In this document: positions 10,218 to 46,003 of the stretch, one piece after another
How the letters are laid out: each line of letters starts with the position of its first letter
Position numbering within the stretch: the first letter of the stretch is position 1
Source of the DNA: Polynucleobacter sp. MWH-UH24A
GTDB taxonomy: Bacteria > Pseudomonadota > Gammaproteobacteria > Burkholderiales > Burkholderiaceae
Assembly: GCF_018687475.1 (NCBI RefSeq)
Contig: NZ_CP061292.1
Span: 1,851,273 to 1,915,272, forward strand
DNA: 64,000 nucleotides
Direction of reading: 5' to 3'
Made by a program: the position numbers and the translations under genes
Notes under the pieces: model-generated
Databases searched by the model: none
Seen by the model: the letters and a program-made list of their open reading frames with translations, nothing else
Told to the model about the DNA's origin: nothing

Positions 10218-10835
10218 ATGCATACCCCTATTCAGCAAATTCGACAGGATCTCTTAAACCAGCGCTCGTCATTTGCCCAGTCATCCGAATTTGATTCCAC
10301 ATATGCTCTTTTTTTATCCCAATTTCGTCAATTTCTTCTCCAAGAAGGAGAGGGATACCGGTCACTTGCATTTTGCTGGCCTTACCGCGACGAGCTTGAT
10401 CTGCGGGAACCTCTGTGCGCATGGCGAGAATCTAGATCGAATCGATACCTCTTGTTGCCTAAAGTTGAGGCCAATCGGCAATTGATTTTTTACACCTGGT
10501 CAGACCCAGACTCCTTAATTTTAAATACCTACGGAATTGCCGAACCCAACCCAAAAGCTAAAGGGGTGGAGCCTATGAACCCCGACTGTATCCTAATCCC
10601 TTGCCTTGGCTGGCTGAACTATCAAAACCAGTTTTGGCGACTCGGATATGGCGGGGGATATTTTGATCGAACTATAGCTTCCTTAAAGCTTACAGGGCAT
10701 CGATTTATAACGGCTGGTATCGCTTTTGACTGGCAAGCGCTGGATCACCATCGCTGGACCCCTCAGGTCCATGACCAAGCCCTTGATCTTATGATTACCA
10801 ACTCCGGGATCCACCAAAATACGTCTAGGGCTTAG
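10218..10835 (+). CDS. 5-formyltetrahydrofolate cyclo-ligase
   Basis: The enzyme converts 5-formyl-THF to 5,10-methenyl-THF with ATP. The 205-residue protein ends with the family signature GYGGGYFDRTIA and has the N-terminal helix QIRQDLLNQR that precedes the ATP site. CLGW replaces the more common P-G-L/V-A-F in the middle motif, which is a tolerated variation in betaproteobacteria. It is divergent from slt (29-base gap). Its last 11 bases overlap the convergent metF stop, so the one-carbon genes are tail to tail. Often called fau/ygfA. Confidence 0.88.
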   Translation: MHTPIQQIRQDLLNQRSSFAQSSEFDSTYALFLSQFRQFLLQEGEGYRSLAFCWPYRDELDLREPLCAWRESRSNRYLLLPKVEANRQLIFYTWSDPDSLILNTYGIAEPNPKAKGVEPMNPDCILIPCLGWLNYQNQFWRLGYGGGYFDRTIASLKLTGHRFITAGIAFDWQALDHHRWTPQVHDQALDLMITNSGIHQNTSRA

Positions 10836-11667
10836 CGGCGTTGTCCAATTGTAAATTTTGTACGATACGAATTACGGGATCTGCTTGATTAAGTGAGTAA
10901 AAATGCAGACCAGGTACTCCAGCAACGATGAGTTGTTCGCATAGTGCACTGACTACGTCCTCACCAAATGCCTTAATTGAAGCGCTGTCATCGCCATAAG
11001 CCAAAAGACGCAAACGAATCCAACGCGGAATTTCTGCGCCGCATGCATCTGAAAACCGGAGTAATTGGGTACTGCTTGTAATTGGCATAATGCCGGCAAC
11101 CACAGGCACATCAACACCCAATTGATAAGCGTCGTCCACAAACCGAAAATAGGCATCGCTATTAAAAAAGTATTGGGTAATTGCTGAGTTGGCACCGGCC
11201 TTAATTTTTTGAGCAAAGTATGCAATATCTTTGCTTGGGGATTGTGCTTGAGGATGCGTCTCTGGATAAGCTGCTACCTCGATATGAAACCAATCACCGG
11301 TCTGTTGGCGAATGAATTCAACGAGTTGGTTGGCATGCTGTAACTCACCGTACTGACCCATGCCAGATGGCAAATCACCGCGTAACGCCACAATCCGTTT
11401 GATGCCCAATGCCTTGTATTGCGAGAGAAGCTGCGTAATCAATTCTTTGGAACTGCCGACACACGATAAATGGGGCGCAACGAGCTCTCCGGCCCGATGA
11501 ATAGCCTCAACCGTCTGCAAGGTTCCTGATTGAGTCGATCCGCCCGCACCAAAGGTTACTGAGTAAAAGGCGGGCTTTAATGCCGCTGAAATTCGCTCCC
11601 GCGTTTGTAGCAAACGCGCTTCCCCCTCCGGGGTTTTGGGAGGGAAGAACTCGACGCTTAACTCCAT
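10825..11667 (-). CDS. metF: 5,10-methylenetetrahydrofolate reductase
   Basis: MetF reduces methylene-THF to 5-methyl-THF, the methyl donor for homocysteine methylation. The 280-residue protein has the TIM-barrel marks SVEFFPPKT at the N-terminus (FAD/NADH side), SVTFGAGGST, and LRGDLP around residue 100. The substrate-binding segment ITQYFF and PVVAGIMPI follow. The AAGGG-type ribosome site upstream of the ATG is well placed. It lies 18 bases downstream of ahcY and is probably co-transcribed with it, so the ahcY leader switch may also affect metF message level if it acts on stability or termination. Confidence 0.95.
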   Translation of the reverse strand: MELSVEFFPPKTPEGEARLLQTRERISAALKPAFYSVTFGAGGSTQSGTLQTVEAIHRAGELVAPHLSCVGSSKELITQLLSQYKALGIKRIVALRGDLPSGMGQYGELQHANQLVEFIRQQTGDWFHIEVAAYPETHPQAQSPSKDIAYFAQKIKAGANSAITQYFFNSDAYFRFVDDAYQLGVDVPVVAGIMPITSSTQLLRFSDACGAEIPRWIRLRLLAYGDDSASIKAFGEDVVSALCEQLIVAGVPGLHFYSLNQADPVIRIVQNLQLDNAAKP

Positions 11668-11685: not shown

Positions 11686-13125
11686 TTAATAACGATAGGT
11701 TTCAGGCTTAAAGGGGCCTTCCTTCTGAACCCCAATATAGGCGGCCTGCTGATCTGATAGCTCAGTGAGCTGCGCATTCAATTTCTTAAGCTGCAAACGG
11801 GCAACTTTTTCGTCTAAGTGCTTAGGCAAGGTATAGACCCCTACAGGGTATTTATTGGTTCCTGCCGCTCCCCAGAGTTCGATCTGCGCAATCACTTGAT
11901 TCGCAAACGAAGAGCTCATGACATACGAGGGATGCCCTGTGCCGCAACCTAAATTGACTAATCGGCCCTTGGCCAAAATAATAAGGCGCTTTTCAGGAAG
12001 CCCATTTGCCGCTGGGAAAATGACATGATCAACTTGAGGCTTAATTTCTTCCCATTGGTATTTTTCAATACTGGCAATATCAATTTCATTATCAAAATGG
12101 CCAATATTGCAAACAATCGCCTGGTCTTTCATTTTCTTCATGTGATCATGCGTTATGACGTGATAGTTACCTGTCGCTGTAACAAAGATATCGGCTTTAT
12201 CAGCGGCGTACTCCATTGTCACCACACGATACCCTTCCATCGCGGCCTGTAATGCACAGATCGGGTCAACTTCGGTCACCCATACTTGAGCGGAGAGTGC
12301 ACGTAATGCTTGGGCTGAACCTTTACCTACATCACCATAACCAGCCACAACGGCTACCTTACCGGCAATCATGACATCGGTCGCACGCTTAATCGCATCC
12401 ACTAAAGATTCGCGGCAGCCATATAAGTTATCAAATTTACTCTTGGTTACGGAGTCGTTGACGTTAATGGCCGGGAAATGCAGCTCGCCCTTTGCATGCA
12501 TTTGATAGAGACGATGCACACCCGTCGTTGTCTCTTCAGTAACGCCGTTAACTTTGGCTAATCGCGTTGAATACCATGTTGGATCAATCGCCAATTTACT
12601 CTTAATTGCCGCAAAAAGAATCCGTTCCTCTTCGCTGGTTGGATGATTGAGAACGGCTAGATCTTTTTCAGCCTTAGTACCTAAATGCAGCAATAAGGTT
12701 GCGTCGCCACCATCATCCAAGATCATATTGCTATAACCACCGTCTGCCCATTCAAAGATCTTGTGGGTGAAATCCCAATACTGCTCAAGAGTCTCGCCTT
12801 TGATCGCAAATACGGGGGTGCCATTCGCAGCGATTGCGGCGGCGGCATGATCTTGTGTTGAATATATATTGCACGACGCCCAACGGACTTCGGCACCTAA
12901 GGCTTCAAGGGTCTCAATGAGAACGGCGGTCTGAATTGTCATGTGTAACGATCCGGTAATGCGTGCGCCCCGTAAGGGTTGCTTGGCGGCAAACTCTTCG
13001 CGGATAGCCATCAAACCGGGCATCTCGGTTTCAGCAATTTTGATTTCTTTACGACCAAAATCGGCCAAACCAATATCGGCAATTGCAAAATCGCCATTTA
13101 GCTTCAAATCAGCAACAGTATTCAT
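11686..13125 (-). CDS. ahcY: S-adenosylhomocysteine hydrolase
   Basis: AhcY splits S-adenosylhomocysteine into adenosine and homocysteine and so relieves product inhibition of methyltransferases. The 479-residue protein has the NAD-binding loop [13 protein letters not shown], the catalytic region [18 protein letters not shown] with the lysine that contacts the ribose, and the C-terminal KPETYRY ending that reaches the neighbouring subunit. A GGAG ribosome site lies six bases before the ATG and is part of a riboswitch expression platform described separately. The gene stands between metK and metF, making a compact methionine-cycle block. Confidence 0.97.
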
Positions 13126-13130
13126 GAATA

Positions 13131-13197
13131 GCTCCAGCTAAAGAATGCTAGTGGAGCCAGTATTGACTCGCTAACCGCTAGCATTCGGGTTAGCGAG
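13131..13197 (-). promoter_or_regulatory. Expression platform of the ahcY riboswitch (ribosome-site sequestering)
   Basis: Three perfect pairings compete. (A) CTCGCTAACC (13197-13188) with GGTTAGCGAG (13176-13167). (B) GAATGCTAG (13186-13178) with CTAGCATTC (13151-13143). (C) GCTCCA (13157-13152) with TGGAGC (13136-13131), which contains the ahcY ribosome site. Arm A shares CTCGC with the 3' side of the aptamer's closing stem, and its loop holds the 5' arm of B. B encloses GCTCCA in its loop and would block C. The inferred logic: SAH bound gives P1 + B with the ribosome site free; SAH absent gives A + C with the site hidden. Confidence 0.75.
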
Positions 13198-13282
13198 CGC
13201 AGTTGCAATGAAGTTACTAAGTAACTCCCCTCCAAGCCTGGGGGGCGAAAATACGCCCCTTGCAACGCTCCTTGAAGGAATT
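13192..13282 (-). promoter_or_regulatory. SAH riboswitch aptamer upstream of ahcY
   Basis: Read on the minus strand, the leader has AAGGAGCGTTGCAA at 13276-13263, a GGGGCG/CGCCCC hairpin with an AU-rich loop, CCAGGCTTGGA, and TTGCAACTGCGCTCGC closing at 13192. The GAGCG and CGCTC ends can form stem P1. This order of blocks matches the known SAH-element consensus found upstream of ahcY in beta- and gammaproteobacteria, including the CCAGGCU core. It is immediately upstream of the gene that degrades SAH. A TACAAT sequence at 13294-13289 could be a -10 box, but no clear -35 is seen, so transcription may also come through from metK. Confidence 0.88.
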
Positions 13283-13306
13283 GCCTAAATTGTAATCAAT
13301 TTCGGG

Positions 13307-14473
13307 CTAGAGGCCTGCCGCACCCTTCAAAGCAGCCGCTTTATCCTTGCGTTCCCAAGTGAACTCAGGCTCCTCACGGCCAAAATGGCCATATGCAGCG
13401 GTCTTTTTGTAAATGGGTCGCAAAAGATCAAGCATTTTCACAATACCTTTCGGGCGAAGATCAAAATGCTCCGATACGAGTTTTGCAATCTGCTCGTCGG
13501 CAATCTTGCCCGTACCAAAGGTGCTAACCATGACCGATGTGGGACGGGCGACACCAATCGCATACGAAATTTGGATGAGGCATTTGCTTGCCAAACCAGC
13601 AGCAACCACGTTCTTCGCTACATAGCGGCCAGCATAGGCAGCGGATCGATCAACCTTCGATGGATCTTTTCCAGAAAATGCACCGCCGCCATGAGGAGCG
13701 GCACCGCCATAGGTATCCACAATAATTTTGCGACCTGTAAGACCACAATCGCCTTGCGGACCTCCAATTACAAAGCGACCGGTTGGATTCACTAAATATT
13801 TAATATCCCCTTTAATTAAATGCTTTGGTAAAACTGGTTTGATAATTTCTTCAATCACTGCTTCACGCAATTTCTCCAAAGGAATATCAGCAGCATGCTG
13901 AGTCGATAGCACCACGGTATCGATCGAGTCTGGTTTTCCATCTACATAACGTAAGGTCACTTGGGATTTTGCATCGGGGCGCAACCAATTTAGGCGTCCA
14001 TCACGACGCAATTGAGATTGACGCTCCACCAGGCGGTGCGACAAATAAATTGGTAAAGGCATTAGCTCAGGAGTCTCATCACAGGCATAACCAAACATTA
14101 ATCCCTGATCACCAGCGCCTTGATCCAAACCATCATCGTGTGCCTTATCAACGCCCTGAGCAATGTCTGGACTCTGTTTGTCATAGGCTACCAAAACTGC
14201 GCACCCTTTGTAATCGATGCCATATTCTGTGTTGTCATACCCGATCTCGCGCAAAGTATTGCGTGCGACTTGAATGTAATCAACATTGGCGTTAGTTGTG
14301 ATTTCGCCGGCAAGAACCACTAAGCCAGTGTTGCAAAGGGTCTCGGCAGCAACACGTGCCTTCGGGTCCTGCGCCAAAATGGCATCTAGGATTGAATCCG
14401 AGATTTGGTCTGCAACTTTATCGGGATGTCCTTCAGAAACAGATTCTGAGGTAAAGAAATAATCGTTAGCCAT
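13307..14473 (-). CDS. metK: S-adenosylmethionine synthetase
   Basis: MetK forms SAM from methionine and ATP. The 388-residue product starts [19 protein letters not shown], with the substrate histidine in [17 protein letters not shown] (the adenine/Met loop) and the phosphate-binding [19 protein letters not shown] follow. I use the ATG at 14473 because it opens at the family N-terminus and has GGAG seven bases upstream; a start further upstream would add twelve unrelated residues. It lies upstream of ahcY on the same strand, with the SAH riboswitch in the gap between them, and is divergent from an acyltransferase gene. Confidence 0.96.
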
Positions 14474-14651
14474 TCTATTCTCCATTTGTTTAAGCACTGA
14501 CAACGCCACGTGCCGGGGAATACAACGGCGACGCTTTAGCAGATTTTTTTAATTCGCCCCGCAAGTTGTCTTTAACTCGGCGAATAATAGGATTCTATCT
14601 TATTTAACGACTGGTCGCTAAACCCCATTTTGAATTGAATATCATTAGCAC

Positions 14652-45927: not shown

Positions 45928-46003
<76 letters not shown>

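Follow-up and report, generated by a model that had tools for sequence, protein, structure and literature searches.

A predicted relay between an SAH aptamer and the ribosome site in the ahcY leader of Polynucleobacter

SAH riboswitches have been reported from four beta- and three gamma-proteobacterial groups, always before ahcY, and metK is not controlled by them according to the available portion of the study (PMC4239095), in which the expression platform of the class is not discussed. In Burkholderia cenocepacia and Herbaspirillum such a riboswitch lies before the SAH hydrolase gene (PMC4603805, PMC7011215, excerpts), and other RNA motifs of Polynucleobacter have been described, the SAH riboswitch not being among them in the accessible part of the report (PMC8632094). 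Strand-exchange platforms use an aptamer strand that is common to an alternative hairpin, which decides on a terminator or a sequestor (PMC10907184, in part).

The ahcY leader analyzed here lies in the window, i.e. the whole 64,000-nucleotide stretch of DNA from Polynucleobacter sp. MWH-UH24A. It shares with the SAH riboswitches (RF01057) the aptamer class as judged by score, the position before ahcY and metF, and the ON sign expected from the role of the gene, but differs from them by a predicted relay of helices, leading from H1 through H2, H4 and H5 to H3. Neither this relay platform nor any SAH riboswitch of Polynucleobacter is described in the portions surveyed of the literature (including PMC4239095, PMC10907184, PMC4603805, PMC7011215, PMC8632094 and PMC2864571), which is weak evidence because the survey was made without the primary papers (Wang 2008, Weinberg 2007, Edwards 2010). 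From strand-exchange platforms in general, as far as the excerpt of PMC10907184 covers them, the leader differs in having one extra alternative hairpin, which would turn the sign to ON. The aptamer class is known; the new element is the predicted relay platform at the level of the genus, together with the connection between this platform and the absence of a terminator T-run.

The SAH aptamer and the ahcY locus

Three genes, named after curated models, follow one another on the minus strand in the order metK-ahcY-metF. The gap between metK and ahcY measures 181 bases and holds a single Rfam match, RF01057, with 27 bases between the end of metK and the match and 62 bases from the match to the start of ahcY:

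13307..14509, minus strand: metK, methionine adenosyltransferase (TIGR01034, E 7.1e-183), given as the longest open frame, the ATG at 14473 being the likelier start
13188..13279, minus strand: SAH riboswitch aptamer (RF01057, cmscan), with outer stem 13278-13272/13235-13229 and inner hairpin 13259-13254/13247-13242
13195..13270, minus strand: aptamer pseudoknot helix, 13270-13265 GAGCGU with 13200-13195 GCGCUC
13132..13135, minus strand: Shine-Dalgarno GGAG of ahcY, read from the sequence, 6 bases 5' of the ATG at 13125
11686..13125, minus strand: ahcY, S-adenosylhomocysteine hydrolase, 479 aa (TIGR00936, E 3.5e-177)
10825..11667, minus strand: metF, methylenetetrahydrofolate reductase, 280 aa (TIGR00676, E 2e-92)

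The reported absence of metK control fits the window, because metK lies upstream of the aptamer. A consensus scan of 13000-13700 found no sigma-70-like site, and the ahcY leader may be transcribed by read-through from metK. Among named relatives, the AhcY protein is nearest to that of a Burkholderiaceae MAG (99%), with 84-90% to Polynucleobacter records. Elsewhere in the window, a tRNA gene with the anticodon GAA, presumably a tRNA for Phe, is found at 45931-46003 on the minus strand.

An SAH-type aptamer before ahcY had been claimed in an earlier note on this DNA, which proposed a covariance search with RF01057 as a check. This search bears the claim out, with a score of 60.3 bits against the gathering cut-off of 37 (E 1.3e-8) over the whole model (1-78 of 78). 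The pairing of a GAGCG strand with a CGCTC strand in a pseudoknot is a defining trait of the SAH riboswitch. Both strands were matched by pattern in 238 of 259 loci, which partly repeat one another, the remaining 21 being unmatched: GAGCG[TC] with [GA]CGCTC in 225, GGGCGC with GCGCCC in 7 and GGGCGC with GCGCTC (G-U) in 6. None of the pair-breaking combinations allowed by the pattern, which restricts the breaks that can be seen, occurs among the 238 matched loci. At the level of these sequences the pseudoknot helix is backed by covariation. Score, pseudoknot and the position before genes of SAH recycling (ahcY, then metF) place the aptamer in the SAH class, and by these sequence features the ahcY leader is a real, functional-looking SAH riboswitch of known class for which binding of SAH is predicted.

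RF01057 was matched once in the window's own genome, in 143 of the 151 genus genomes and in 286 of 299 sampled genomes of the family, the genus counted in. Loss of the riboswitch as a general account of the eight genus genomes without a match was rejected, since these are mostly cases of contig edges, incomplete assemblies and a mis-join. In G092 and G112, ahcY lies near a contig edge with a partly readable leader (L260, L261), in G028 and G138 a partial ahcY lies at a contig edge, and in the incomplete assemblies G057 and G142 an ahcY match was not found. G128 (L262, G128:C432) contains ahcY and the platform from within H1 on, preceded by unrelated letters, a contaminated assembly probably having been mis-joined at this point. 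The sole good-quality genus genome without a match is G033, complete in one contig, which has neither an AhcY match nor an SAH riboswitch; given this joint loss, SAH recycling must run another way there. As an observation in its own right, the G015 contig that bears the ahcY copy carries another SAH riboswitch some 20 kb away (L112, G015:C86:21713-22216), and the frame behind the latter we take to be methionine synthase by its motif ILDGAMGTMLQRYKL. An SAH-controlled metH is known from Comamonadaceae, as stated in the portion available of PMC4239095.

Leader helices and their conservation

Between the pseudoknot strand and the start codon of ahcY three helices can be drawn:

13167..13197, minus strand: H1, the competing hairpin, 10 pairs, 13197-13188 CTCGCTAACC with 13176-13167 GGTTAGCGAG, 10/10 paired
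13143..13186, minus strand: H2, 9 pairs, 13186-13178 GAATGCTAG with 13151-13143 CTAGCATTC, 9/9 paired
13131..13157, minus strand: H3, the sequestor of the ribosome site, 6 pairs, 13157-13152 GCTCCA with 13136-13131 TGGAGC, 6/6 paired, from sequence and ensemble

The letters thus confirm the three perfect pairings of 10, 9 and 6 bases that had been claimed. No other Watson-Crick helix of at least six pairs was found in the 78 bases 13200-13123, and letter shuffles of this stretch (n=5000) gave a perfect helix of at least 10 pairs in 4 cases and of at least nine pairs in 26. H3 grows to 8 pairs with a G-U once 13159-13158/13130-13129 are included. That the six-base pairing hides the ahcY ribosome site also stands, in the sequence as in the folding ensemble, as H3 covers the GGAG (13135-13132).

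It had further been proposed that H1 competes for the 3' arm of the aptamer stem P1. This is ruled out: H1 leaves the outer stem of the Rfam model untouched and overlaps the pseudoknot strand, with which it has three bases only in common (13197-13195). H1, H2 and H3 have no bases in common among themselves. The 5' arm of H2 lies within the loop of H1, with one unpaired base on each side, and its 3' arm within the loop of H3, with no unpaired base on the 5' side and six on the 3' side.

For the comparison with relatives, 122 genus loci (of 146 matches) were joined by 17 named ones, which partly repeat them. The pattern could read 138 of these 139 loci and yielded 82 distinct sequences reaching from the pseudoknot strand as far as the start codon, or 81 distinct leaders, the window's own included, once the metH copy L112 was set aside. 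H1 is nearly unchanged, with five of its ten pairs invariant and pair 1 broken in one of the 81 leaders; pair 4 is never mixed in the 81, being G-C in 68 leaders and A-U in the other 13. At pair 8, 42/81 leaders have an A-C mismatch, and in these the upper stem can rearrange.

H2 occurs in the relatives as 30 distinct arm pairs of at least 7 bp, in a search which allowed an overlap of two or three bases with H1; these include GAATGCTAG/CTAGCATTC, ATGATTCAATG/CATTGGATCGT, ATTGTCAA/TTGACGAT, TGAAATG/CATTTCA and TTCTTGG/CCAAGAA. In a swap test, for which no alignment was fitted, the H1 loop was paired with the downstream stretch of its own or of other clusters (15 clusters of 70 distinct pairs). 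Own partners reached an average of -6.0 kcal/mol against -3.4 kcal/mol for swapped ones and 0/20000 permutations were as good, a figure which is not a strict probability because the clusters are related by descent. Measured against its own shuffles, H2 stood out at 0.05 or lower in 7/15 clusters and was no better in 6/15 (P>0.2: L009, L066, L010, L016, L074, L022). The comparison with related leaders, for which an alignment had been proposed as a check, upholds H1, and H2 and H3 in so far as they are mostly kept with quite different letters, H2 being indistinct in the six clusters named.

Predicted folding and the relay to the ribosome site

The window leader was folded over 13200-13096 in a nested equilibrium model, which omits the 5' part of the aptamer and contains neither pseudoknot energies nor ligand, and SAH was mimicked by withholding the pseudoknot-strand bases 13200-13195 from pairing. 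In the ensemble of the free leader H1 and H3 each have a probability of 0.83 and H2 of 0.16, and with 13200-13195 blocked the values become 0.97 for H2 and 0.006 for H3. Blocking thereby flips the leader from H1 and H3 to one long imperfect hairpin composed of H5, H2 and H4, which adds two helices:

13155..13172, minus strand: H4, inside H2, 13172-13170 with 13157-13155 and 13168-13166 with 13161-13159, from the ensemble
13137..13194, minus strand: H5, the base of the antisequestor, 13194-13190 GCUAA with 13141-13137 UUAGC, from the ensemble

H4 has a probability of 0.91-0.92 in the blocked and 0.15 in the free state and takes up part of the 3' arm of H1 and the anti-ribosome-site arm, while H5 (0.81 blocked versus 0.15 free) takes its bases from the 5' arm of H1. 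Exclusion by shared bases does exist, because H4 and H5 use bases of both arms of H1 and of the anti-ribosome-site arm. The mutual exclusion of H1, H2 and H3 that had been claimed therefore fails as far as their own base use is concerned, whereas in the ensemble it follows from topology together with H4 and H5. The same applies to the competition of the nine-base H2 with H1, which appears when the aptamer strand is withheld and is not direct. The order of switching put forward earlier was likewise reproduced in part: with the aptamer strand withheld, the aptamer helix excludes H1, H2 forms and H3 is lost in the ensemble, that helix being the pseudoknot and not P1. In the relatives, the swap test was weak for H4 (14 clusters, own -9.8, swapped -9.0, 244/20000 permutations as good), and in many CTCGC-type relatives, as judged by eye, the 3' letters of H5 recur.

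In the window, the upstream leader holds a share of GGAG that drops from 0.96 in the free to 0.01 in the blocked state. Across the relatives this share drops by more than 0.3 in 64/81 distinct leaders versus 108/972 dinucleotide shuffles; the drop is absent in 17/81 leaders and, among those without a T-run, in 8/67 (e.g. L011, L012, L043). The plain chance of GGAG being unpaired moves from 0.04 to 0.52 upon blocking in the window, rises by more than 0.2 in 32/81 leaders (6.4% of 3240 shuffles) and falls by more than 0.05 in 12/81. It rises less because GGAG re-pairs with the start of the coding region, as read from the structures, and is a poorer measure than the held share. In transcripts of the window ending at 13143-13131, H2 is preferred even unblocked (0.83-1.0, ensemble), so that the SAH-free state would need H1 to form first and to persist, or a later refolding.

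We regard it as fairly probable, from the modelled folding, that the leader is an SAH-sensing ON riboswitch of known class which controls ahcY, and probably metF too, at translation by means of a relay. Without SAH, H1 would occupy the three 3'-terminal bases of the pseudoknot strand, and with H1 folded the downstream leader would fold H3, in which the anti-ribosome-site stretch pairs with GGAG and keeps translation low. SAH would lock the pseudoknot and cut H1 to seven pairs, which would lose to the long hairpin of H5, H2 and H4. As this hairpin would consume bases of both H1 arms and the anti-ribosome-site stretch, H3 would be lost and the ribosome site would open. We infer from this that the strand is withheld by SAH binding, that control is exerted at translation and that the direction is ON, which fits ahcY since AhcY removes SAH.

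The dependence of the predicted release on H2 was followed in silico with 200 variants per shuffle class, full release being a held GGAG share below 0.2. When the arms of H2 were shuffled but kept paired, full release was seen in 184/200; such re-paired arms loosen the free state, in which the held share exceeded 0.8 in 96/200 only. With the 5' arm shuffled alone full release fell to 0/200, a drop of more than 0.5 still being seen in 178/200, to 0.29 on average. The corresponding figures for the 3' arm alone were 50/200 and 78/200, and both arms shuffled apart gave full release in 44/200. Complementing four bases of the 5' arm or four of the 3' arm brought H2 to 0 in either case, with a held share in the blocked state of 0.22 and 0.03, respectively. 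Full release persisted in 107/200 when four bases of the 3' arm of H5 were randomised and in 135/200 when 13161-13158, a part of H4, were shuffled. In the model the switch is sharpened by H2, yet other routes of release exist.

The same pairings could also coexist, the loops of H1 and H3 kissing through H2 and keeping the site shut without SAH, until SAH trims H1 and H3 opens. The arms of H2 do sit in these two loops, many relatives preserve their complementarity and the ON sign would fit as well. However, the longest H2 intrudes into the 5' arm of H3 by 1 base in 40/81 leaders and by 3 bases in 4/81, for which a kiss has no need, and bases of H1 and H3 are taken up by H4 and H5. An 11-base loop would also be tight for nine pairs, and a kiss between loops lies outside what a nested folding model scores. 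Given H4 and H5 in the ensemble, we consider this arrangement, as a rival of the relay, unlikely.

T-run leaders and two outputs in one genus

Both terminator and ribosome-site platforms have reportedly been discussed for the SAH class, by Wang et al. in 2008 (Mol Cell). In our set of leaders an unbroken run of at least five T follows H1 in 14/81 distinct leaders (21/137 loci), giving the shape of an intrinsic terminator. These leaders (L005, L013-L015, L017, L018, L020, L023, L024, L029, L034, L066, L083 and L195) have six to eight T and mostly a short H2; in L013, for example, H1 and the T-run read GCTCGCTAACC...GGTTGGCGAGCTTTTTT. From its sequence, H1 with a T-run is likely an intrinsic terminator. 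Leaders of this kind (L013, L014, L066 and L195, and L169 and L250 in the outgroup) share with the window the aptamer and an H1-like hairpin overlapping the pseudoknot strand, but differ from it by the six to eight T after H1, which place control probably at transcription, and by their short H2. Behind H1 the window reads TCAATACT, with no run of T, and thus lacks the shape of an intrinsic terminator.

As scored by our search, the median H2 has 5 pairs in leaders with a T-run versus 11 in those without. Once the aptamer strand is withheld, the ribosome site becomes free in 5/14 of the former versus 59/67 of the latter. In an ahcY tree built from 44 genus and five outgroup rows by a quick method, with 13/40 inner branches open, the T-run requires at least three changes, with none in the 22-row clade of the window. 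The sisters L015 (TTTTTTATTT, an unbroken T6) and L016 (TTCTTTACTT, the T-run broken by one C) behave differently when the strand is withheld: in L016, H1 falls from 1.00 to 0.00 and H3 is abolished, whereas in L015 H1 and H3 hardly change. The predicted relay is thus seen in L016 alone, in a contrast that comes from a single pair of sisters.

These findings suggest, at slightly less than an even chance in our estimate, that the same aptamer and H1 serve two outputs in one genus, the T-run ending transcription and, where it is missing, a long co-varying H2 with H4 and H5 passing the state of H1 on to the ribosome site. The translational platform of the window would be genus-specific and is probably related to a transcriptional one. 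If this holds true, the genus would offer a natural series in which one riboswitch shifts between control of transcription and control of translation, with L015 and L016 at one break point; such a change of platform is rarely visible inside one genus. With 81 distinct leaders bearing a T-run or a co-varying relay on the same aptamer, the conversion would be directly testable with reporters, and the ahcY operon of these freshwater bacteria would be given a concrete, testable control logic.

H1 might instead act chiefly on transcription throughout, by termination, Rho or pausing, and the downstream pairings of the window would then be a plain ribosome-site hairpin and relics. The T-run leaders of the genus and the similarly laid out outgroup leaders L169 and L250 speak for it. 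The window, however, has no T-run after H1, and H2 is longest where the T-run is missing; a consensus terminator scan was negative there, although H1 would have escaped it anyway because it admits loops of up to 8 only. As an explanation of the window's leader we hold this to be distinctly improbable. That only the aptamer, H1 and the ribosome-site hairpin matter and H2 arose by chance, as the clusters wanting a clear H2 and the release without H2 in silico might suggest, is very improbable in view of the rarity of such helices in the shuffles and of the swap test with its reservation on descent.

Outside the genus the leaders are mixed, as judged by eye, 45/138 loci having failed to match the pattern. 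An H1-like hairpin without a T-run (L123 type), terminators (L169, L250) and a direct anti-ribosome-site type (L152, L156, L161, L167) were seen. In the latter, CACGTCTT adjoining the pseudoknot strand is complementary (by eye) to GGAGGCGTG or GGAGGGCGTG over the ribosome site and the start. This type has the aptamer in common with the window, and a translational ON logic is possible for it, but it would work in one step and has no H1, H2 or H3. In the L123-L148 type, found in other genera of the family, a strongly kept GCGAGTCGAC stands directly after the H1-like hairpin, without a T-run.
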